This document shows, one piece after another, positions 128 to 39,966 of a DNA stretch of 39,966 bases. The translations under genes and the position numbers were made by a program. Origin of the DNA: a virus. The number at the start of each line of letters is the position of its first letter. Positions within the stretch are counted from its first letter, which is position 1. The notes below the pieces were generated by a model. It was given only the letters and a program-made list of their open reading frames with translations. It did no database searches and had not been told where the DNA came from. The stretch spans positions 1-39,966 of the IMG/VR virus record IMGVR_UViG_3300027782_000005; one strand, 5' to 3'.

Positions 128-1920
128 AGGCATCCAAAGATATCCGCGAGTGGATCAAAAATTGTCACGAGTATCACGAGACGCTTGAGCCGATGTTCTT
201 GCCTACCGTTGAGAAGCCTTTAGAATGGAATAACCCTTGGATTGGCGGCTACGCTTCGCTTGAGTGGAAGCCTCGACCTCTCGTAAAAAGCAGATCGAAG
301 GCTTACCAAGAATCACTATCAACTTCACTGTCATCGGGCGTGTATTCGTCCGTCAACTTCATTCAGAATACTCCGTGGGCTATCGATCCGATTACACTTG
401 AGTTGGTTAAAGATTGTTGGAAAGAAGGCATCTCACTTGATGGTCTGCCTCCTTCACTTGATGAGCAACTGCCTACGAAACCAAGCGATATCAACACGAA
501 CGATGATGCACGAAGGCAATGGCGCAAGGCTGCGGCTAAGGTTCACTTCCTAAATGAATCGTATGAGTCACAGCGACTCCTGACCTTGAAAGCCTTGTTC
601 ATCGGTGACAAGATGAAGGACTTCAAGTCCCTGTGGTTCCCACATCAATTAGACTTTCGTGGACGCGGATATCCCCTGCCCCTCTTCTTGCAACCACAGG
701 GTGTTTCATATGCTAAGTCTATGCTTCGTTTTGCAAACGGTAAACCCCTACATAGTGATGCTGATCAGTTTCCCCTATACATTCAGGTTGCTAATAAGTT
801 CGGTCTCGACAAAGAACCTCTTCAAAAAAGAGTAGCGTGGGTCGAGGGCAACAGGGCAACCATTGAACAGATCGCACGAGACCCTTGGGCTAATCGCTTG
901 TGGCTCAAGGCAGACGAACCATTCGCGTTTGCTGCTGCCTGTCGTGAACTTAATGGCTTGTGGAAGCATGGCAAAGGCTTTGTAAGCCGCCTACCCATCT
1001 CAATGGATGCTACTACTCAGGGTTTACAGATCTATTCTATGTTGTTGCGGGATCCTGTTGCAGCCCTAGCAACCAACGTCCTGCCTTCCGACTGTCCTTC
1101 TGATCCGTACAGATTCGTGGCTGAAGCGGTCATTGAACGCCTGAAGAAGTCTGAGGATCCAATGGCTCCCCAACTGCTTCGCTTTGGTATTGATCGCAAC
1201 ACCACCAAGCGTCAGACAATGACCCTGCCCTATGGGCTGACAATGCATTCATGTATCAACTACACGCGTGAGTGGCTTGAAGACAAGATGCGTAAGACAG
1301 GTGAGAATCCGTTTGGACTTGAGACCTACAAGCCGATTGCTTTTCTAGGCAAAATAATTTGGGAATCTATCGATGATGTTGTTGGCTCTGCAAAGCGTGG
1401 AATGGATTTCATTCGTGGTTGTATTAGTGTGCTTATTGATAACGATGTGACGCCTCATTGGATGACGCCCATCGGCTTCCCTGTTCGTATGCGCTATGAA
1501 AACTACGACACCATTACCGTATCTACTCGCATCGGTGCCAAGGCTAAGGTGCTATCGCTGCGCCAAGACAACGGATTACAAAGCAAACGCAAAGCACTTA
1601 ATGGCGGTCCTGCTAACTATATCCATTCGTTGGACGGCTTCGGTGGACTGCTAGGACACACGATTAATATGTGTGCAGCAAACGGCATTCAAAACCTTGG
1701 TGCAGTACATGACCAAATCCTGTGCCTTTCGGCTGACTACATGACTACTGCTTCGTGTGTGCGACACGCAACGGTTGACATCTTCTCAAGAGACCTGCTT
1801 GAGGAGTTCCGTCAGGGGCTATTGACATATCTGCCTTCTTCCTGTACAATACCCGAAGTGCCAAAGTACGGTTCTTTGGACATATCAAAGGTCAAGGATT
1901 CAGACTACTATTTCAATTAG
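1..1920 (+). CDS. T7-like single-subunit RNA polymerase, C-terminal part (gene split by contig ends)
   Basis: This is the DNA-directed RNA polymerase that transcribes the phage middle and late genes. The frame is open from base 1, and the N-terminal part lies at 39366-39966; joined across the 127-bp overlap the protein is 797 aa (T7: 883). Motif A is ISMDATTQGLQ, with the metal-binding Asp at residue 494 of the joined protein. Motif B is TKRQTMTLPYG, with K561 and Y569 spaced exactly like T7 K631/Y639. Motif C is AVHDQI with D729. All catalytic residues are present. The 3' end (1822-1850) carries a sigma70-type promoter, and the TAG stop is followed directly by a palindrome copy. The family call is firm; promoter specificity cannot be read from sequence. 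Confidence 0.97.
   Translation, partial: TRWAKADALSVGLLLIEMMAARTGIVELITKLNARGRRYCVIQASKDIREWIKNCHEYHETLEPMFLPTVEKPLEWNNPWIGGYASLEWKPRPLVKSRSKAYQESLSTSLSSGVYSSVNFIQNTPWAIDPITLELVKDCWKEGISLDGLPPSLDEQLPTKPSDINTNDDARRQWRKAAAKVHFLNESYESQRLLTLKALFIGDKMKDFKSLWFPHQLDFRGRGYPLPLFLQPQGVSYAKSMLRFANGKPLHSDADQFPLYIQVANKFGLDKEPLQKRVAWVEGNRATIEQIARDPWANRLWLKADEPFAFAAACRELNGLWKHGKGFVSRLPISMDATTQGLQIYSMLLRDPVAALATNVLPSDCPSDPYRFVAEAVIERLKKSEDPMAPQLLRFGIDRNTTKRQTMTLPYGLTMHSCINYTREWLEDKMRKTGENPFGLETYKPIAFLGKIIWESIDDVVGSAKRGMDFIRGCISVLIDNDVTPHWMTPIGFPVRMRYENYDTITVSTRIGAKAKVLSLRQDNGLQSKRKALNGGPANYIHSLDGFGGLLGHTINMCAANGIQNLGAVHDQILCLSADYMTTASCVRHATVDIFSRDLLEEFRQGLLTYLPSSCTIPEVPKYGSLDISKVKDSDYYFN
1822..1850 (+). promoter_or_regulatory. 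Sigma70-type promoter inside RNA polymerase 3' end
   Basis: TTGACA, 17-bp spacer, TACAAT. It lies 70 bp before palindrome 1921-1934 and the SSB start. It would let host RNA polymerase transcribe the replication genes without the phage polymerase. Confidence 0.65.
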
Positions 1921-4512: not shown

Positions 4513-4851
4513 ATGCAACCCCGCAAACTAACTGCACGACAAGTGAATGAAATTCAAGACCTTGGCAAGACTTCCATGAAAAAGGTGGACATAGCCAAGC
4601 AGTATGGCGTCAGCCCACAATTGGTATCTACGGTAATTAGGTACGGCTATGAAACGCGTCCCACTATTTACCGCAATATGTCTACAACAGCAGAGCCGGA
4701 CTCTTGGGAGACACTTGCAAAAGCATTGAATGCAAAGTATCCTGACGAACCTGTTACAGCCGCACAGGTACGACAGATGCACGACATAGCACTAAAGAAG
4801 ATTGCTGCGGCTTGGGCAAAGCAGGGCATCACTAAAGAAGACTTGTTCTAG
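4513..4851 (+). CDS. Small two-HTH DNA-binding protein, putative transcription regulator
   Basis: This is a 112-aa protein of unknown function with two visible DNA-binding patterns. Residues about 7-42 (TARQVNEIQDLG...KVDIAKQYGVSPQLVSTVI) read as a resolvase/phage-type helix-turn-helix. Residues about 80-100 (EPVTAAQVRQMHDIALKKI) resemble the recognition segment of sigma70 region 4.2 (VTxxxIRQIxxxALRKL). A strong AAAGGAG ribosome-binding site precedes the ATG. The TAG stop lies inside a palindrome copy (4846-4861), which separates it from DNA polymerase. By inference it could bind that palindrome or touch host or phage RNA polymerase, but nothing in the sequence proves a target. The HTH call is fairly firm; the sigma-like match is a pattern judged by eye. 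Confidence 0.7.
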   Translation: MQPRKLTARQVNEIQDLGKTSMKKVDIAKQYGVSPQLVSTVIRYGYETRPTIYRNMSTTAEPDSWETLAKALNAKYPDEPVTAAQVRQMHDIALKKIAAAWAKQGITKEDLF

Positions 4852-4861
4852 GATCCTAGAA
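4846..4861. repeat. Palindrome copy before DNA polymerase
   Basis: A full TTCTAGGATCCTAGAA; its TAG supplies the stop codon of the two-HTH gene. It is followed by a hairpin with the ribosome-binding site of DNA polymerase. Confidence 0.95.
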
Positions 4862-4881: not shown

Positions 4882-6633
4882 ATGGAAATTGTATTTGATA
4901 TTGAAACGCCTATGGTGGCTGATTGGTTGAACCTGTCTGACGTTAAAGAAATTCTGTGCATGGCTATTAGTATTGATGGTGCAGAGCCTAAGACGGTAGA
5001 CATGGAGTATGGCTTGCTGCTCCTGAGTACTGCCGATACTGTGATCGGACACAACATTCAATCCTTTGATATCCCTGCACTCAAGCGGGTCTATCCGAAG
5101 TTTGAGATTAGCGGACAGGTGTTCGACACTTTAATTGTTTCGCGTTTGCTTCATGCGGATATCCGGGAGCGTGACTTTCTGCTCCCTGAGTTTCCAAAGG
5201 AGTTGGTCGGGTCGCACAGTCTCAAGGCTTGGGGCTACCGCCTTGGTCTTGGCAAGGGACAAGCACCTGAGTTCACTACGTCAGAAGAACTCAATGCTTA
5301 CTGCCGTCAGGATGTACGGGTTACGCATCGGCTGTACAAGCACTTGCTGAACCATCCATCAATGCCGGAAGCCGTTAAGGCAATCACTCTTGAGCATGAG
5401 TTTTCTGCAATCATTCGCAAGCAGGAGCGCACGGGCTTTCCCTTCGACATCAAGGGTGCAGAGCGTCTTCACGCTGAGTTGCGTAAAGAGTTGCTTGGGT
5501 TGGAGCAGGAGATGCAGAAGATCTTCCCTCCAAAGGTGATTGAGCGTGTGTCTGAGAAGACAGGTAAGGCAATGAAGTCGAAGACTGAAGTCTTTAATCC
5601 GGGATCTCGTCTTCAGATTGCTGAACGCCTGATGGAGCGATACCAATGGAAGCCCATTGAGTTGACCCCTGATGGACGCCCTCGGATTGACGAAGCGGTG
5701 CTGTCTGATCTTCCATACCCGGAGGCTAAGACCCTGTGCCGTTACCTGACAATCATCAAGCGTCTTGGGCAGGTAGCAGACGGGGACGAGGCGTGGCTCA
5801 GGGCGGTCGCTACTGATGGACGCATTCACGGACTAGTGAACACCAACGGAGCGATTACGGGGCGTTGTACCCACCGTAGTCCGAACTTGGCGCAGGTTCC
5901 CAAGGAGCCTGAGTACCGTGCCTTGTTCCTCCCGGCTGCTAACGAGGTGTTGGTTGGGGTGGATGCTTCGGGTTTGGAACTGCGCTGCCTCGCTCATTAC
6001 CTTGGCAAGTACGATGGTGGTGTATATGCGGCTACGATCCTGACCGGAGACATCCATTGGGAGAATGCCAAAGCCTTCGGGTTGACCACCGATGCTGTGC
6101 AGGACAAGACAAATCCAACTCACAAGCAAGCCCGTGATCAGGCAAAGGGTGCAATCTATGCGCTCATCTACGGCGCAGGTAATGACAAGTTAGGTTTTGT
6201 TCTTGGTGGTACCGGAGCGCGAGGCAAGAAGGCTCGGATGAACTTTGAAGCCAAGGTTCCGGCATATGCAGCCCTCAAGGCAGACGTGACGCAACTGATG
6301 ACTACCCGTGGATGGATGCGTGGTCTTGATTCACGCCCTCTCTATCCCCGGTCTACTCATGCTGCCCTCAACACGCTGCTTCAAAGTGCAGGAGCGGTTG
6401 TGATGAAGGAAGCCTGTGTCATAGCCCACCGCAACTTTGCTTTGCAATCTATTCCGGTAAAGCAAGTAGCCACCGTGCATGATGAATATCAGTTCACAGT
6501 TAATGCTGCCTACGCAGAAACTGTTGGTAACATTGTTGTACAGGCTATTCAAGAAGCCGGAAAGTACTACAAATTCAGATGCAAATTAGACGGCGTACAT
6601 CGAAGCGGAGCCAATTGGGCAGAAACACACTAA
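4882..6633 (+). CDS. DNA polymerase, family A, T7 gp5-like, with 3'-5' exonuclease
   Basis: This is the replicative polymerase. It is 583 aa, against 704 in T7. The exonuclease domain has FDIET (Asp6, Glu8), VIGHNIQSFDIPAL and YCRQDVRVTH. The polymerase domain has motif A GVDASGLELRCLAH (Asp361), motif B RDQAKGAIYALIYGAG and motif C VHDEYQ (Asp534). The end, GANWAETH, matches the T7 GPNWAICH end, so the gene is complete. The segment before FNPGSR in the thumb is only about 30 residues and appears to lack the T7 thioredoxin-binding loop, so another or no processivity factor is likely. The leader carries palindrome copy 4846-4861 and a hairpin with the ribosome-binding site in its loop (4862-4876). 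Confidence 0.97.
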   Translation: MEIVFDIETPMVADWLNLSDVKEILCMAISIDGAEPKTVDMEYGLLLLSTADTVIGHNIQSFDIPALKRVYPKFEISGQVFDTLIVSRLLHADIRERDFLLPEFPKELVGSHSLKAWGYRLGLGKGQAPEFTTSEELNAYCRQDVRVTHRLYKHLLNHPSMPEAVKAITLEHEFSAIIRKQERTGFPFDIKGAERLHAELRKELLGLEQEMQKIFPPKVIERVSEKTGKAMKSKTEVFNPGSRLQIAERLMERYQWKPIELTPDGRPRIDEAVLSDLPYPEAKTLCRYLTIIKRLGQVADGDEAWLRAVATDGRIHGLVNTNGAITGRCTHRSPNLAQVPKEPEYRALFLPAANEVLVGVDASGLELRCLAHYLGKYDGGVYAATILTGDIHWENAKAFGLTTDAVQDKTNPTHKQARDQAKGAIYALIYGAGNDKLGFVLGGTGARGKKARMNFEAKVPAYAALKADVTQLMTTRGWMRGLDSRPLYPRSTHAALNTLLQSAGAVVMKEACVIAHRNFALQSIPVKQVATVHDEYQFTVNAAYAETVGNIVVQAIQEAGKYYKFRCKLDGVHRSGANWAETH

Positions 6634-13651: not shown

Positions 13652-13667
13652 TTCTAGGATCCTAGAA
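13652..13667. repeat. Palindrome copy overlapping tail tube A start codon
   Basis: A full 16-mer whose last A is the A of the ATG; its AGGA is the only candidate ribosome-binding site. It lies 15 nt after the capsid terminator. Confidence 0.95.
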
Positions 13668-31137: not shown

Positions 31138-31731
31138 ATGCGTGTCTTAGTTGCCTGTGAGTGCAGCGGGGCAGTCAGAGACGCCTTTGCAGCCCTAGGG
31201 CATTACGCCTTGTCTTGCGACATCAAGGAAACAGAGGAGCCGGGGAACCACCATGTGGGCGATGTGCTTGAACTCTTAAATGAGGGATGGGACATTATGA
31301 TTGCTCATCCTCCTTGCACCCACTTGGCAGTTGCAGGAGCAAGATACTTCAAAGAAAAACAGGCTAGTGGGGTACAGCAACAGGCTTTAGAGTTTGTGCG
31401 CCAACTGATGGCTGCCCCTATTCCTAAGATCTGTGTGGAGAACCCTGTTGGTGTTATTTCTACCCAAATTCGTAGACCTCATCAGCGCATACATCCTTGG
31501 CAATTTGGTCACGAAGCAGAGAAAACTACTTGTTTATGGCTTAAGAATCTGCCCCGACTACAACCAACAAATATCGTTTCTAAAGGCGAATTTGTTGTCT
31601 TAAAGAACGGAAAACGCATGACTAAGTGGCTATGTAATGCAAGCAATAGTGCGCCCGGAGTCCGCAGTACTGTTCGTAGTCGCACCTTCAAGGGCATTGC
31701 AGAGGCAATGGCAGCCCAATGGGGGATCTAG
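31138..31731 (+). CDS. Cytosine-C5 DNA methyltransferase-like protein
   Basis: This 197-aa protein has motif I-like RVLVACECSGAVRDAF, an acidic HVGDV segment, motif IV IAHPPCTHLA with candidate catalytic Cys60, and motif VI CVENPVG, the order of C5-type methyltransferases. It is much shorter than typical enzymes, lacks an obvious target-recognition domain, and has Thr rather than Gln/Ser after the catalytic Cys. It could be a compact phage methyltransferase protecting phage DNA or a divergent member with another substrate. No partner restriction enzyme is present. It overlaps the next gene by 13 nt. Confidence 0.7.
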   Translation: MRVLVACECSGAVRDAFAALGHYALSCDIKETEEPGNHHVGDVLELLNEGWDIMIAHPPCTHLAVAGARYFKEKQASGVQQQALEFVRQLMAAPIPKICVENPVGVISTQIRRPHQRIHPWQFGHEAEKTTCLWLKNLPRLQPTNIVSKGEFVVLKNGKRMTKWLCNASNSAPGVRSTVRSRTFKGIAEAMAAQWGI

Positions 31732-32090: not shown

Positions 32091-32451
32091 CCCCCTTAAA
32101 AGGCAAGCCCGTTGACAACCTGCGGTGCAGTTTGAGGGTACGACAGGTTTTGGAGAAAAAATCTGAAGGGGCTTAATTGATTCACAGGGCGCGCACACCC
32201 CCCGTGGGGGTACCCCGCAGCCGCGCCGTGGGCAGCCGATGGCAGCGCCCTATGCATAGCCAACGGATAGCCAATGGATAGCCGCGCGTTATGCAATGGC
32301 TATGCATTAGGCGGGTTATCGGGCTAATTCCGGGTTGCCGTTATCGGTACCTGTAGCCGGGCTAGTTATGCGGACGTTCGCCAGGGCGCATGGTCAGTCT
32401 GTACCTACCCGTTTATTTGTGAAATATTTCCATCCGATTCCATGCAGTTAC

Positions 32452-32480
32452 TTGACGGCGCGGCATTCATGGTTTAAGAT
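32452..32480 (+). promoter_or_regulatory. Sigma70-type promoter for the GC-rich first early gene
   Basis: TTGACG, 17-bp spacer, TAAGAT, 28 bp before palindrome 32509-32524. It is well placed as a left-end early promoter. Confidence 0.65.
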
Positions 32481-32508
32481 ACGCAAGTCAGCCAACCGAG
32501 GCGGGAAA

Positions 32509-32524
32509 TTCTAGGATCCTAGAA
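32509..32524. repeat. Palindrome copy before the GC-rich early gene
   Basis: A full 16-mer, 28 bp after a sigma70 -10 box and 39 nt before the ATG at 32564. Confidence 0.95.
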
Positions 32525-32563
32525 ACCGACCAAGGCGCTGACAAACTGAAAGAGGATGACACT

Positions 32564-33259
32564 ATGACTACGAAAGCCACTAAGAAGTCCGCAGCACCGA
32601 TCGCCCTCCCTGCCGCAGTCGCTTCGCTTGCTGCCAAGGTGGACGCAACGATGCCGAAGTCTGCCATGTCTTGCCGCGGCTACGGTGCCACCATCAAGGC
32701 GGGAATCGTGTCCGTTCTGACCCACGCCGAAGCCGCTCATTCTGCCGGGATGAAGGTAGCCACCGGGCTAGCCGAACTGTTTGTGATGGAGCCATGGACG
32801 ATCAGTGGTCATAAGGATGCCACACAATGGGCGCTAGCCTTGCTGACCGAGGCGCTGCCGACTGCCGGACAGTCAACCAAGTACGCATGGGTTGACGCTG
32901 CGGTAGCCCGGTGTGCTATCGTGGCGGATGGGACGCTCGACATTGCAGACTTCCCGATGGATACGCTGCGCGTGGCAGGGTCACGGATGGCAACGGGTCA
33001 CGATCCGGTCAAGGTAGTCGAATTGGCAAAGAAACTCGCAGCGAATCCCGACCTGCGAAACGCCAAGGGTAGCATTGACCCGGTCAAGGCAGCCAAGGCA
33101 GCCAAGGGCAAGAGTACGGAATTGACCCGGATGGACATGATTAAGGCTATCCGGTCATGTGCTAATCGATACGCTCCGAATGACGCGCAAGGTGCCTACG
33201 AATTGCTCCGCGATGCTGCGGAAAGCCAATTGGTAGTAGTGAACGGCGCCAAGGCATAA
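32564..33259 (+). CDS. GC-rich first early protein of unknown function (231 aa)
   Basis: This Ala-rich, mildly basic protein (MTTKATKKSAAPIALPAAVASLAAKVDATMPK) is not recognised. Its third codon positions are visibly richer in G/C than those of the rest of the genome. It stands alone: a strong sigma70 promoter and palindrome copy lie upstream, while a palindrome copy and a terminator hairpin lie 4 and about 25 nt downstream. It would be among the first proteins made after DNA entry, the position where T7 encodes anti-host factors such as gp0.3. That role is inference from position. Confidence 0.75.
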   Translation: MTTKATKKSAAPIALPAAVASLAAKVDATMPKSAMSCRGYGATIKAGIVSVLTHAEAAHSAGMKVATGLAELFVMEPWTISGHKDATQWALALLTEALPTAGQSTKYAWVDAAVARCAIVADGTLDIADFPMDTLRVAGSRMATGHDPVKVVELAKKLAANPDLRNAKGSIDPVKAAKAAKGKSTELTRMDMIKAIRSCANRYAPNDAQGAYELLRDAAESQLVVVNGAKA

Positions 33260-33262
33260 GGA

Positions 33263-33278
33263 TTCTAGGATCCTAGAA
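33263..33278. repeat. Palindrome copy after the GC-rich early gene
   Basis: A full 16-mer, 3 nt after the stop codon and directly before the terminator hairpin; no gene starts right after it. Confidence 0.95.
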
Positions 33279-33431: not shown

Positions 33432-33555
33432 ACTATCATTCACTATCAACGGGGTACCCTCTTCGGGCATGACTATCATCTACTGTCATACGGGGTACCC
33501 TCTTCGGGCATGACTATCATATCTACTGTCATCGGGGCGCCCTCCTCGGGCATGA
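33432..33555. repeat. Three tandem repeats of about 41 bp
   Basis: Units start at 33432, 33472 and 33513. Each has ACTATCAT..., then CGGGG(T/C)(A/G)CCCTC, then TCGGGCATG. The third unit differs in the loop of the GC block (GCGCCC for GTACCC) and has TCC for TCT. Iterons for replication, packaging or a regulator are all possible. Confidence 0.8.
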
Positions 33556-33564
33556 CACGAGATC

Positions 33565-33580
33565 TTCTAGGATCCTAGAC
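33565..33580. repeat. Palindrome copy in the noncoding region
   Basis: A 14-bp core with C replacing the last A of the 16-mer. It lies between the tandem repeats and the AT-rich tract, away from any gene start. Confidence 0.9.
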
Positions 33581-33826: not shown

Positions 33827-33854
33827 TTGACAAGAAACAAATCAATGGTACAAT
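33827..33854 (+). promoter_or_regulatory. Sigma70-type promoter of the main early operon
   Basis: TTGACA, 16-bp spacer, TACAAT with TGG before it (extended -10). The downstream bases GGGCGCA and AGAGG recur in the promoter at 37494. It is 37 bp before palindrome 33892-33907. Confidence 0.75.
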
Positions 33855-33891: not shown

Positions 33892-33907
33892 TTCTAGGAT
33901 CCTAGAA
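33892..33907. repeat. Palindrome copy before gene 33929
   Basis: A full 16-mer between the main early promoter and the hairpin leader of the first small early gene. Confidence 0.95.
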
Positions 33908-33908
33908 A

Positions 33909-33923
33909 GTTCTCGAAAGGAAC
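33909..33923 (+). promoter_or_regulatory. Leader hairpin with ribosome-binding site in loop (gene 33929)
   Basis: Arms GTTC and GAAC flank the loop TCGAAAG, directly after palindrome 33892-33907. Confidence 0.5.
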
Positions 33924-34150: not shown

Positions 34151-34166
34151 TTCTAGGATCCTAGAA
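34151..34166. repeat. Palindrome copy before gene 34178
   Basis: A full 16-mer starting on the base after the TAA of the previous gene. It runs directly into AAGGAAC, the next ribosome-binding site. Confidence 0.95.
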
Positions 34167-34435: not shown

Positions 34436-34451
34436 TTCTAGGATCCTAGAA
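34436..34451. repeat. Palindrome copy before gene 34474
   Basis: A full 16-mer starting on the base after the TAA of the previous gene, 22 nt before the next ATG. Confidence 0.95.
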
Positions 34452-35111: not shown

Positions 35112-35281
35112 AAACACACACAATCATCATTCTTCCTGACGGTGAAACTTGGAACACACTTAATGGGTGTCAGATCGTTGTTATTACTGACGAACATTTT
35201 AAGGATCTTTGCAACGATCAAATCAATGCGTGTAATGTTCAACCAATCGCAACCATTGCGGTTTATACGGAGGATAAATAA
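35108..35281 (+). CDS. Small early protein (57 aa)
   Basis: The reading frame MKTHTIIILPDGETWNTLNGCQIVVITDEHFKD... ends AVYTEDK. It starts in an ATGA overlap and ends in TAATG with the next gene. GGAGG near its 3' end serves the next start. Sequence alternates beta-like hydrophobic stretches (TIIILP, QIVVIT, ATIAVYT), consistent with a tiny beta-rich fold. No family is recognised. The coupled overlaps on both sides and a good upstream site (TTGGAGGAC) support translation. Confidence 0.65.
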   Translation: MKTHTIIILPDGETWNTLNGCQIVVITDEHFKDLCNDQINACNVQPIATIAVYTEDK

Positions 35282-35487
35282 TGCATACCCGCACCAAGAT
35301 TATCTTAGGTAGCAAGCGCGCACTCAGCCTGTCTATTGACAATCTGTTTATTTCGCGTACAATACACGCTCCAAAGCCTTTCATGCATGACTGCGAGTTG
35401 TGCGAGGCGGGTGGAGAAGAATACTGTGACGCGTGTCGCAGTAGTGTTTCTAGGATCCTAGAAGATTCACGAAAGGAATCAGCATGA
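35281..35487 (+). CDS. Small early protein with four-Cys zinc-ribbon-like motif (68 aa)
   Basis: The motif CELCEAGGEEYCDAC (C-x2-C-x8-C-x2-C) near residues 38-52 suggests a small zinc ribbon. A strong GGAGG precedes ATG 35281, which overlaps the previous stop. Unusually, the frame reads through palindrome copy 35448-35463 (encoding SRILE) and stops in an ATGA overlap with the next gene. It also contains a complete TTGACA/TACAAT promoter at 35336-35363. Either the last 15 residues are incidental or gene and control element genuinely overlap. Confidence 0.55.
   Translation: MHTRTKIILGSKRALSLSIDNLFISRTIHAPKPFMHDCELCEAGGEEYCDACRSSVSRILEDSRKESA
35336..35363 (+). promoter_or_regulatory. Sigma70-type promoter within the zinc-ribbon-like gene
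   Basis: TTGACA, 16-bp spacer, TACAAT, 84 bp before palindrome 35448-35463. It would restart early transcription for the 35484 gene onwards. Confidence 0.65.
35448..35463. repeat. Palindrome copy before gene 35484
   Basis: A full 16-mer inside the 3' end of the zinc-ribbon-like frame, where it reads SRILE. Confidence 0.95.
35464..35480 (+). promoter_or_regulatory. Leader hairpin with ribosome-binding site in loop (gene 35484)
   Basis: Five-base arms GATTC and GAATC flank the loop ACGAAAG, directly after palindrome 35448-35463. Confidence 0.5.
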
Positions 35488-36335: not shown

Positions 36336-36351
36336 TTCTAGGATCCTAGAA
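36336..36351. repeat. First of two palindrome copies before the Gp88-like gene
   Basis: A full 16-mer, 3 nt after the stop of the tiny TM peptide and 13 bp from the second copy. Confidence 0.95.
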
Positions 36352-36364
36352 CTCAACGACGGGT

Positions 36365-36380
36365 TTCTAGGATCCTAGAA
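36365..36380. repeat. Second of two palindrome copies before the Gp88-like gene
   Basis: A full 16-mer. Centre-to-centre distance to the first copy is 29 bp, close to three helical turns, which would put two bound dimers on one face of the DNA. Confidence 0.95.
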
Positions 36381-36401: not shown

Positions 36402-37241
36402 ATGCTAACTCTTCTTACAACATCAGGTATGCAAGTTCCAAATTGGGAAGCCCTTGAAGCCGCCTCGTGGATGGCTCACAGGGACTACCTCATGGGTTAT
36501 AAATTCCCGCGTCACTATCAAAAGTTACTGTCATCACCCGACAGCAACACCAAGTTCACCAAGGGCGGTGGCTTGCCCATCATCGGGCTTACCTTGGCTC
36601 CTGCGGGAATGTCGGGGTATCAACTCTGTCCGAATCGTTCGGCTGAGTGCGAGGCTGCTTGCCTTGGTGTAACCGCAGGTCGCTCTCGTTTCAGCAATGT
36701 TGTAGAGGCTCGGATCAAGAAGACCCGTTTCCTCATGGAATCGCCGTACTACTTCTTCCGTAATCTGTATCACGAACTAAACGCCGCCCGTGTTAAGTAC
36801 AAGAAGTTTGCCTTCCGTAGTAATGTCCTGAGTGACATACCTTGGGAAGATGTTGCGCCTGACATTTACAACTTCTCCGAGCATAACTACGACTACACTA
36901 AGAGTCTTGCTCGTGCATTACGCTCGTTGAGATTCAATTCTGCCATCAACCTGACCTTGTCATACTCCGGTAGGAATTGGCAGGACTGCGCTGAATACCT
37001 ACGCCAAGGTGGAAATGTTGCAATGGTATTCAAGGTTAAACGCGATGAACCCTTACCATTAACTTTTGTTCGTGGCTATAAAGAATGGCGTGTTATCAAC
37101 GGCGATGCGAATGATCGGCGCTATACAGATCCACTAACCGTTGGTGGTGCTATCGTTGGACTTCGGGCAAAGGGAAACATCGATATGAATTCCCCGTTTG
37201 TTGTAAACCCTAACAGGAGAACAGAATGCGAATCTATCTAA
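36402..37241 (+). CDS. Gp88-like phage protein of unknown function (279 aa)
   Basis: The largest early protein besides DUF932-like. Conserved-looking parts are GLTLAPAGMSGYQLCPNRSAECEAACLGVTAGR, VVEARIKKTRFLMESPYYFFRNLYHEL, FRSNVLSDIPWE and NYDYTKSLAR. This matches what I recall as the 'gene product 88' family of phages (three or four Cys, then AR.KT, SDi.WE, YDYTK). Its function is not established to my knowledge. It is preceded by two palindrome copies 13 bp apart and a leader with GAAAGG in a 5-bp arm hairpin, so it may be under the tightest control of the early genes. Confidence 0.7.
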   Translation: MLTLLTTSGMQVPNWEALEAASWMAHRDYLMGYKFPRHYQKLLSSPDSNTKFTKGGGLPIIGLTLAPAGMSGYQLCPNRSAECEAACLGVTAGRSRFSNVVEARIKKTRFLMESPYYFFRNLYHELNAARVKYKKFAFRSNVLSDIPWEDVAPDIYNFSEHNYDYTKSLARALRSLRFNSAINLTLSYSGRNWQDCAEYLRQGGNVAMVFKVKRDEPLPLTFVRGYKEWRVINGDANDRRYTDPLTVGGAIVGLRAKGNIDMNSPFVVNPNRRTECESI

Positions 37242-37493: not shown

Positions 37494-37521
37494 TTGACAA
37501 CAACAGAATGTTTGGTACAAT
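37494..37521 (+). promoter_or_regulatory. Sigma70-type promoter of the acidic-protein gene
   Basis: TTGACA, 16-bp spacer, TACAAT with TGG before it, followed by TGGCGCA. It is near-identical in layout to the promoter at 33827 and is 41 bp before palindrome 37563-37578. Confidence 0.75.
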
Positions 37522-37562: not shown

Positions 37563-37578
37563 TTCTAGGATCCTAGAA
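37563..37578. repeat. Palindrome copy before the acidic-protein gene
   Basis: A full 16-mer between promoter 37494-37521 and the hairpin leader. Confidence 0.95.
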
Positions 37579-38497: not shown

Positions 38498-38513
38498 TTC
38501 TAGGATCCTAGAA
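38498..38513. repeat. Palindrome copy before the DUF932-like gene
   Basis: A full 16-mer starting on the base after the TAA of the previous gene, 21 nt before the next ATG. Confidence 0.95.
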
Positions 38514-38534: not shown

Positions 38535-39248
38535 ATGAAGAACACTTATCGTTCGCTCGGCAACTTGGCATCGATCCCGTTCCCCGCTCCTACTGCTTCG
38601 TACACCCCGGTACCGCAGGAAGACTTGTGGAACCTGACCGTCCGACAGTTTGAGAACCGTGGTTACACCGTCAGCAAGGAGTCGCACGTTGTGCATCACT
38701 CCAAGCCAATCTTCGTGTCTAACATGACGGTCAGCAAGCCCACCATTACTAACCCTGAGATGGAGTGGACTTGCGCCTTGGTCAACAGTTACAACATGAC
38801 CCGTCCTGCCTCAATCCTTTTCGGAGGTAGGGTCTTCGCCTGTTCTAACGGGCTGATGGTTGCCGATCACATCCTCAAGACCAAACACACTACCCATGTG
38901 TGGGATCGCTTGCCGGGTATGATCTCAGCCGCTGTTAACTCCTTTGAGGAAGAGGTGACTAATGCTTCTATCTTCTACAATGGTTTGCGTCAGAAATTCA
39001 CCAATGAGCAGCAGTTGTCTACCTTTGCTGTTAACCTTGGTCGTAGCGGTTTGTTGCCTAAGTCTTCGGTTGTTGACTTTGTAGATGAGGCAATGAATCC
39101 TTCGTTTGATTACGACAGCAACAGGATGTGCTTGTGGAATGTCCACAATGCGTACACGCACCTCGCTAAGGAGTTCACCATTACGGAGCGTCCGCAGCGC
39201 GTGATGAACTTTGAGAAGCAACTCAAGGCTTCCTACCTGTTGGCTTGA
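38535..39248 (+). CDS. DUF932-like early protein (237 aa)
   Basis: The protein carries VNSYNMTRPASILFGGRVFACSNGLMVAD...KHTTHVW and later CLWNVHNAYTHLAKEF. This matches the DUF932 (phage/plasmid-like) pattern NSxD...G..vFxCxNGm...rHt...l.n..NA.TH. Function of the family is unsettled; members are common on plasmids and phages. The frame is open from 38349, but ATG 38535 has GAAAGG upstream after palindrome 38498-38513. It is the last gene before the terminator that isolates RNA polymerase. Confidence 0.75.
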   Translation: MKNTYRSLGNLASIPFPAPTASYTPVPQEDLWNLTVRQFENRGYTVSKESHVVHHSKPIFVSNMTVSKPTITNPEMEWTCALVNSYNMTRPASILFGGRVFACSNGLMVADHILKTKHTTHVWDRLPGMISAAVNSFEEEVTNASIFYNGLRQKFTNEQQLSTFAVNLGRSGLLPKSSVVDFVDEAMNPSFDYDSNRMCLWNVHNAYTHLAKEFTITERPQRVMNFEKQLKASYLLA

Positions 39249-39259
39249 TATAATCCACG

Positions 39260-39285
39260 CGCTGTGAAAACAGCGTTCTCCTTTC
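39260..39285 (+). terminator. Short GAAA-loop hairpin after the DUF932-like gene
   Basis: CGCTGT and ACAGCG close a GAAA tetraloop, followed by a T-rich run with C interruptions. It may work together with the stronger hairpin at 39294. Confidence 0.45.
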
Positions 39286-39293
39286 CTTTCGAG

Positions 39294-39332
39294 CCTCCTG
39301 TATACACTTCGGTGTATGCCGGAGGTTTTTTT
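39294..39332 (+). terminator. Strong UUCG-loop terminator ahead of RNA polymerase
   Basis: A 14-pair stem with one mismatch and one G-U pair has an extra-stable C(TTCG)G loop and is followed by seven T. It separates the early operon from the RNA polymerase promoter. Confidence 0.9.
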
Positions 39333-39334
39333 AT

Positions 39335-39342
39335 GGTATACT
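39335..39342 (+). promoter_or_regulatory. Extended -10 promoter of RNA polymerase overlapping palindrome
   Basis: TGGTATACT spans 39334-39342 and carries the TG extension; there is no clear -35 box because the terminator lies there. A start point 6-8 bp downstream falls inside palindrome 39345-39360, so a bound protein would block it. Confidence 0.5.
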
Positions 39343-39344
39343 TT

Positions 39345-39360
39345 TTCTAGGATCCTAGAA
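39345..39360. repeat. Palindrome copy at the RNA polymerase promoter
   Basis: A full 16-mer, 2 nt after the -10 box and 5 nt before the ATG of RNA polymerase. Confidence 0.95.
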
Positions 39361-39365
39361 ACCCT

Positions 39366-39966
39366 ATGCGCCAAAGCAAACTCGACAAGGAAATGGTTGA
39401 ACTTGGCAAGCAACGGTATCAAAACCGTACTGCTAAAGCCCACCGCATTGCAGCAGAGAGCAACACCATCCCCGGACGGATGATGCTTAATCGCTGCACT
39501 ACTGAATTGGCAAATGAAATTGAGAATTGGATTGCTAAATCATCTACCGGGGCAGGTCGTAGGCATCGGTGCCTGTCCTTCTTGCAGCAACTAGATCCCG
39601 CCAAGATTGCCGTCATTGCGTCTAAGGTGGTCGTTGATGCGCTGTCGCAAGAACGAATGCTGACTAGTACTTGTGTTGCTATCGGTCGCGCTATTGAAGA
39701 TGAGATTCTTCTCGCTGACCTCGCTGCTAACAGCCCCGATTTCCTTCGCACAGTACAGAAGAAAACATTCAAGAAGGTTGGACAGAAGTTTAAACGCAGG
39801 TTTGCGCGTGAAGCAGCCAAGGCAGTCAACTTGGTCACTACGCGATGGGCTAAGGCTGATGCGCTGTCTGTCGGGCTGCTGCTGATTGAGATGATGGCTG
39901 CTCGTACAGGCATTGTGGAACTGATCACCAAGTTAAATGCTCGTGGGCGCCGTTACTGCGTCATTC
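39366..39966 (+). CDS. T7-like single-subunit RNA polymerase, N-terminal part (gene split by contig ends)
   Basis: This is the N-terminal part of the phage RNA polymerase, starting MRQSKLDKEM and running off the contig end. In-frame continuation is from base 1 to 1920 (last 127 bases equal first 127). The ATG lies 5 nt after a palindrome copy (39345-39360). The only ribosome-binding-like sequence is the AGGA inside that palindrome, about 13 nt upstream, so initiation is probably weak or unusual. A TGGTATACT extended -10 box lies just before the palindrome, and a strong UUCG-loop terminator before that. The gene is therefore insulated from the early operon and has its own promoter/operator unit. 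In T7, gene 1 is by contrast the last gene of the early operon and is transcribed from host promoters at the left end. Confidence 0.95.
   Translation, partial: MRQSKLDKEMVELGKQRYQNRTAKAHRIAAESNTIPGRMMLNRCTTELANEIENWIAKSSTGAGRRHRCLSFLQQLDPAKIAVIASKVVVDALSQERMLTSTCVAIGRAIEDEILLADLAANSPDFLRTVQKKTFKKVGQKFKRRFAREAAKAVNLVTTRWAKADALSVGLLLIEMMAARTGIVELITKLNARGRRYCVI
39840..39966. repeat. Assembly overlap, right copy (identical to 1-127)
   Basis: The second copy of the 127-bp overlap. The RNA polymerase frame continues seamlessly from here into position 128. Confidence 0.95.

Follow-up and report, generated by a model that had tools for sequence, protein, structure and literature searches.

How is the RNA polymerase gene of this T7-like phage controlled, and what is the role of the palindrome that lies just in front of it? 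In T7, gene 1 belongs to the early operon, unlike the polymerase gene considered here. The window, i.e. the whole stretch of 39,966 nucleotides that was analysed (IMG/VR record IMGVR_UViG_3300027782_000005), has identical first and last 127 bases, corresponding to an end repeat, and, as judged from its sequence, represents all or nearly all of a T7-like genome. Since the terminal bases are identical, the polymerase gene runs across the window junction, from 39366 to 1920, and encodes 797 aa. Both a single-subunit T7-type RNA polymerase and a T7-like module order (helicase-primase, DNA polymerase, head-tail, capsid, tail, terminase) were found, as in Autographiviridae-type phages. The early genes (about 33.9-39.2 kb, the last one being 38535-39248) lie behind three near-consensus host-type promoters.

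39366-39966, plus strand: RNA polymerase gene, first part (phrog_414, E 2.9e-167; PF00940)
128-1920, plus strand: RNA polymerase gene, second part, past the 127-base end repeat
33827-33854, plus strand: early host-type promoter 1 (TTGACA-16-TACAAT, 11/12)
35336-35363, plus strand: early host-type promoter 2 (11/12)
37494-37521, plus strand: early host-type promoter 3 (11/12)

Rfam and tRNA scans gave no matches, and a search of phage records returned no near match. Upstream of the early promoters, the non-coding stretch 33449-33562 holds three near-identical 31-nt direct repeats (ACGGGGTACCCTCTTCGGGCATGACTATCAT). Another non-coding stretch, 32091-32563, contains repeated inverted repeats of the TATGCATAGCC/GGCTATGCAT type and is perhaps near an origin or genome end. 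A small DNA methyltransferase gene (31138-31731; phrog_757, E 3e-62) has no counterpart in G004 or any other relative compared.

Between the last early gene and the polymerase gene, three elements follow one another closely.

39291-39332, plus strand: intrinsic terminator at the end of the early operon, ahead of the RNA polymerase gene (stem 39291-39328, UUCG loop)
39334-39342, plus strand: extended -10 element TGGTATACT, predicted promoter of the RNA polymerase gene itself, host sigma-70 type
39344-39361, no strand assigned: putative operator TTTCTAGGATCCTAGAAA over the predicted RNA polymerase mRNA start point, a perfect 18-bp palindrome

The terminator stem folds with an energy of -23.8 kcal/mol (z -5.8, no shuffled sequence being equally good) and is directly followed by seven T (39326-39332). 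Only 1 nt separates TGGTATACT from the palindrome, whose 16-bp core is 39345-39360. No recognisable -35 was found before the gene, the hexamer at a 17-nt spacer being GTATGC, and the consensus promoter scan does not list this promoter. Because a -35 is absent, the predicted promoter would rely on its extended -10; its activity is suggested by this element and by the conservation described below. Transcription would be expected to start at A39349, about 7 nt past the -10, leaving a leader of about 17 nt. The original prediction had placed the polymerase gene behind an insulating terminator and under its own promoter, with the palindrome on the start point. All three claims were upheld: the strong stem with its UUCG loop and T-run is kept in relatives, the likely host-type promoter TGGTATACT lies between terminator and palindrome and recurs in relatives, and the expected +1 falls inside 39344-39361.

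Immediately upstream of the terminator, positions 39257-39293 form a hairpin followed by TTCTCCTTTCCTTTCGAG. Here TTCCTTTCGAG matches, as an exact reverse complement, the CTCGAAAGGAA that several early genes have in their ribosome-binding sites (near 33911, 34456, 36388 and 37582). Several relatives with a spacer of the TTCTCCTTTCCTTTCGAG type have matching ribosome-binding sites; G003, G006 and G010, which have other spacers, do not. The spacer could possibly act as a 3'-UTR antisense RNA.

The relatives are metagenome contigs whose polymerase loci were compared at 77-98% identity; they represent few lineages, partly interrelated. They keep the order terminator, -10-like element, TCTAG-N3/4-CTAGA and start codon, a few of them carrying the shorter TCTAGACTCTA in place of TCTAG-N3/4-CTAGA. 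A stem-loop with a T-run was present in the upstream region of every relative examined. Ten upstream regions, from about 7 lineages, have an extended -10-like sequence between the terminator and TCTAG; it ends 3-4 nt before TCTAG, or abuts it in three of them. The summed -10 score was 66, against 29 +- 6.6 (maximum 53) in shuffled gaps, for 10 sequences of which some are close kin. Furthermore, in relatives the polymerase gene is flanked on both sides by TCTAG-N3/4-CTAGA at matching places.

The palindrome is not confined to this locus. Its exact 14-mer, TCTAGGATCCTAGA, occurs 15 times in the window, when about 0.1 occurrences are expected (shuffled mean 0.09), and, allowing up to 3 mismatches, TTCTAGGATCCTAGAA is found 16 times where 0.17 matches would be expected. 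Fourteen of the 15 sites are essentially non-coding in a genome whose non-coding share is 5.6%, a value that depends on the gene set chosen. The 14 sites beyond the polymerase promoter are as follows, with no strand assigned to any of them.

1920-1935: site separating the RNA polymerase gene from the SSB gene (exact 14-bp core; place conserved in relatives)
4846-4861: site ahead of the DNA polymerase gene
13652-13667: site abutting the ATG of a tail gene
32509-32524: putative operator within the candidate repressor gene's leader (see below)
33263-33278: putative operator directly after the candidate repressor gene
33565-33580: putative operator in the non-coding stretch ahead of the early promoter (14-bp core exact)
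33892-33907: putative operator at about +32 of early promoter 1, about 22 nt ahead of an early gene
34151-34166: stoperator-type site flanked by two early genes
34436-34451: stoperator-type site flanked by two early genes
35448-35463: site lying, alone among the 15, wholly within a reading frame (end of 35281-35487), at about +79 relative to early promoter 2
36336-36351: first site of a close pair ahead of the GP88-family gene
36365-36380: second site of this pair
37563-37578: putative operator at about +36 of early promoter 3
38498-38513: stoperator-type site ahead of the last early gene (38535-39248)

Sites nearly always fall within the short gap from a stop codon to the next ribosome-binding site, typically 0-4 nt past the stop and 12-24 nt ahead of the next start. 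Most early genes are preceded by one; others surround the candidate repressor gene or stand at 1920, 4846 and 13652. Relative to promoters, they lie at about +32, +36 and +79 from the early ones and about +22 to +23 from that of gene 32564, and only at the polymerase gene is the start point itself covered. That the palindrome is one of 15 copies was absent from the original prediction, which had seen in it the switch for the polymerase. This idea stood in so far as a site does lie at the polymerase promoter; as the sole switch it did not, since 14 further sites exist across the genome. At the tail gene, the site 13652-13667 contains AGGA at a distance of 7 nt to the ATG, which may be its ribosome-binding site; the palindromic site remains GATC in phages of other types (G002, G004, G005).

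When the relatives were compared, the half site TCTAG was constant and the centre varied by lineage (GATC, TCA, AACT, ACT, GAA and others). The window has GATC in all 15 copies and G007 in five. G004 has TCA eleven times and GATC once. In G003, AACT occurs eleven times, AGTT once (at the polymerase) and AATT once. L151 has ACT at 7/7 sites in the operon and AGT at 4/4 around the repressor. Centres are GAA, TTC or GAC in G006, mixed pyrimidine-N-purine triplets in G009 and mixed in G001 and G002. Those that are not self-complementary were found in both orientations, mostly in one direction along the operon; among the relatives with asymmetric centres, this preference was 11/12 in G003, 11/11 in G004 and 7/7 in the L151 operon, and G009 was mixed. 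This pattern points to a two-fold symmetric DNA-binding protein whose fit at the centre would differ between lineages. Downstream of the candidate repressor gene of L151, at 5056-5082, three operators overlap in tandem (TCTAGAGTCTAGAGTCTAGAGTCTAGA).

Which protein would bind these sites? Gene 32564 stands alone to the left of the early promoter and outside the early operon, with sites on both sides.

32452-32480, plus strand: likely promoter of the candidate repressor gene (TTGACG-17-TAAGAT; expected start about 32487)
32564-33259, plus strand: candidate repressor, 231 aa, helical, of no known family, which follows the operator type

Outside the early region, most genes of the window share 87-100% identity with those of G004 (polymerase 98%, terminase 99%), but the 32564 products are only 36% identical. 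In three other phages with TCA sites (L067, L068, L086), whose terminases are 98-99% identical to that of the window, the homologues share 38-39% with the window protein and 83-100% among themselves and with G004. Thus identity is 36-39% between GATC and TCA phages and 83-100% within the four TCA phages. Early genes 33931, 34474, 35484 and 35866 and the tail gene 25666 do not track the operator type. Positional counterparts of 32564 were found in G001, G002, G003 and L151, which have other operators (the G003 homologue extends over the contig ends), and a site adjoins the homologue in every lineage where one was found. A direct search with the 32564 protein returned no relatives; they were found through the G004 version and a profile. 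Profile comparison with the G001/G002 counterparts gave E 2.7e-6, and the L151 counterpart is 45-48% identical to these two. No version was found in cultured phages, and the 32564 protein had no PHROG, Pfam or PDB match. AlphaFold2 models were helical (pLDDT 65 for the window protein; 74, with a core near 90, for L151). Fold searches with them gave no significant PDB match; the BFVD search gave one uncultured phage protein, A0A6J5M438. From co-variation and position, the product of 32564 is most likely the repressor that binds the sites, the independent operator/repressor pairs being only a handful; DNA binding by this protein is suggested by the same correlation and position and by its all-helical model.

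Two other proteins were considered as binders and rejected. The phage polymerases of the GATC and TCA types differ in 12 of their 797 residues, none of them near the region after TPIGFPV, which we take to be the counterpart of the T7 polymerase specificity loop. The HTH protein 4513-4851 has a helix-turn-helix stretch, SPQLVSTVIRYG, that is essentially unchanged between GATC and TCA phages, and its version in G014 (TCA) is nearer to that of the window (GATC) than to that of G004 (TCA).

The 32564 protein has no recognised DNA-binding domain, and it is conceivable, though unlikely, that the same network is served by another phage protein, such as an undetected small protein or the GP88-family product of 36402-37241. 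Homologues of the latter are present in most lineages, and it tracks the operator type weakly (94% identity within TCA phages against 67-69% between types, in three comparable genomes). However, 36402 diverges far less between types than 32564 and its change could be explained by linkage, whereas 32564 occupies its own segment outside the early operon with a site alongside in every lineage where it was found. A host regulator, with the lineage-specific centres reflecting different hosts, seems improbable. It would fit the 24 TCA-form copies on the unrelated 113-kb contig L124, which has no clear homologue of the candidate, but not the comparison of the window with G004: as polymerase, terminase and most replication genes are shared at 98-99% identity, both phages should share a host or have very closely related ones, but every site except the tail one differs in its centre.

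We consider it very improbable that the palindrome works as RNA, i.e. as a 5' hairpin, an RNase III-like processing site or an mRNA stabiliser. It does fold as RNA at -5.8 kcal/mol and sits just before ribosome-binding sites, but compensatory changes are absent (the 14-mer is identical in all 15 copies), the copies at 33263 and 33565 precede 350-650 nt without a gene, and a hairpin in the polymerase leader would be halved because the start point falls inside the palindrome. Since odd centres occur in both orientations, the site is better read as a DNA element. A role as the promoter recognised by the phage RNA polymerase can scarcely be maintained: the site is repeated ahead of early and some late genes and no rival repeated late promoter motif was found among the intergenic stretches, but it is self-complementary, and genomes that differ in their sites have polymerases that are 98% identical and unchanged in the specificity region. 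Equally hard to credit is a ParB/parS-like partition centromere of a plasmid prophage. Many palindromic sites near a candidate binder gene, and a weak structural resemblance of the 32564 protein to Spo0J (E 5.7, not significant), would suit it; on the other side, no ParA partner was found, ParB N-terminal and HTH domains gave no Pfam match in the 32564 protein, and a site on a start point or between stop codons and ribosome-binding sites suits transcription control.

We therefore favour, as the probable reading, that the 15 sites are operators and stoperators of a repressor which the phage itself encodes, probably a dimer and most likely the 32564 product. At the polymerase promoter, a repressor on the start-point site would block initiation by the host RNA polymerase, and the terminator would remove read-through, so that phage polymerase would come mainly from this promoter. 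On the other sites, most of them 12-40 nt ahead of early-operon start codons or at +22 to +79 from promoters, the repressor would road-block elongation. The simplest outcome of a bound repressor would be joint silencing of the early genes and the polymerase, leading to a quiescent or excluded state of the phage itself or of an infecting relative with the same sites. We infer binding, the identity of the binder, repression and a role in immunity or quiescence from sequence. No integrase family was found among the reading frames scanned and no partition gene was found, so classical lysogeny would not be expected; nor was there prophage evidence, the only match in bacterial genomes being an all-phage 13-kb contig. 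In a phage lacking an integrase, silencing may serve to keep out co-infecting relatives, to maintain a carrier state or to time the shut-off of early transcription; the diversified specificities would favour exclusion or a carrier state over timed shut-off.

By analogy, the nearest system in behaviour is the repressor of cluster A mycobacteriophages (L5, Bxb1, Trixie), which acts on operators and on stoperators, where it halts elongation; each genome has tens of these 13-14 bp sites, of which a few lie at promoters and the majority in short gaps between genes, mostly in one orientation along transcription, and site and repressor diverge together between subgroups (PMC6550527, PMC9283540). The phage studied here likewise has many copies of one short, mostly intergenic site (15, of which 14 essentially non-coding), an orientation preferred along transcription in the relatives with asymmetric centres, and a site and candidate repressor that diverge together (two types in detail, the others being consistent). 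It differs in being T7-like with its own RNA polymerase, whose promoter is targeted, in having inverted repeats where cluster A sites are asymmetric, in a candidate repressor unrelated to that of L5 by sequence search, and in that no integration gene was found. KorB of plasmid RK2, a ParB-like global repressor (PMC11790492), also uses one palindrome of similar length spread across a mobile element, near to and far from promoters; in this phage, however, no ParB domain or KorA partner was detectable, and the sites are found past the promoters and within operons. T7-type gene order is shared with LUZ100, which has temperate features and a suspected special control of the polymerase gene (PMC10134795), with T7-like cyanophages, which also have temperate features (PMC8776855), and with pelagiphages such as HTVC109P, again with temperate features. 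LUZ100 and HTVC109P have an integrase with a MarR-like regulator, whereas the window lacks an integrase; no repeated palindrome was found in HTVC109P or HTVC168P. Searched for stoperators and podoviruses together, the open-access literature yielded no description in T7-like phages, and such an operator/stoperator network seems undescribed in T7-like phages.

Contig L124 (IMGVR_UViG_3300031539_000007) carries 24 copies of TCTAGTCACTAGA, of the TCA type, at 75.0-87.4 kb of its 113 kb, many just ahead of ribosome-binding sites. Neither a T7-type polymerase nor a detectable homologue of the 32564 candidate was found on it, and the lack of such a homologue beside these sites counts against the reading favoured above. 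Upstream of this cluster, the ORF L124:1818-2315 has an HTH-like STAY motif; it resembles the same HTH by eye and ranks second of 2782 reading frames, but at E 2.3, and is therefore not claimed as a homologue.

A broader proposition, which we advance tentatively and which could well prove wrong, is that T7-like phages have a full immunity system with a new repressor family of rapidly diversifying specificity, evolving jointly with 12-15 operators/stoperators through which the early operon and the phage polymerase are silenced, but with no integrase, and that the same operator code is used in the unrelated 113-kb phage. T7-like phages are the textbook strictly lytic viruses, and such a network would bear on the practice of calling them so from a missing integrase. 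If the proposed network is real, part of the T7-like group would live under co-infection pressure or in quiescence, self-silencing would give a reason for the insulation of the polymerase gene, and orthogonal repressor/operator pairs would be supplied.
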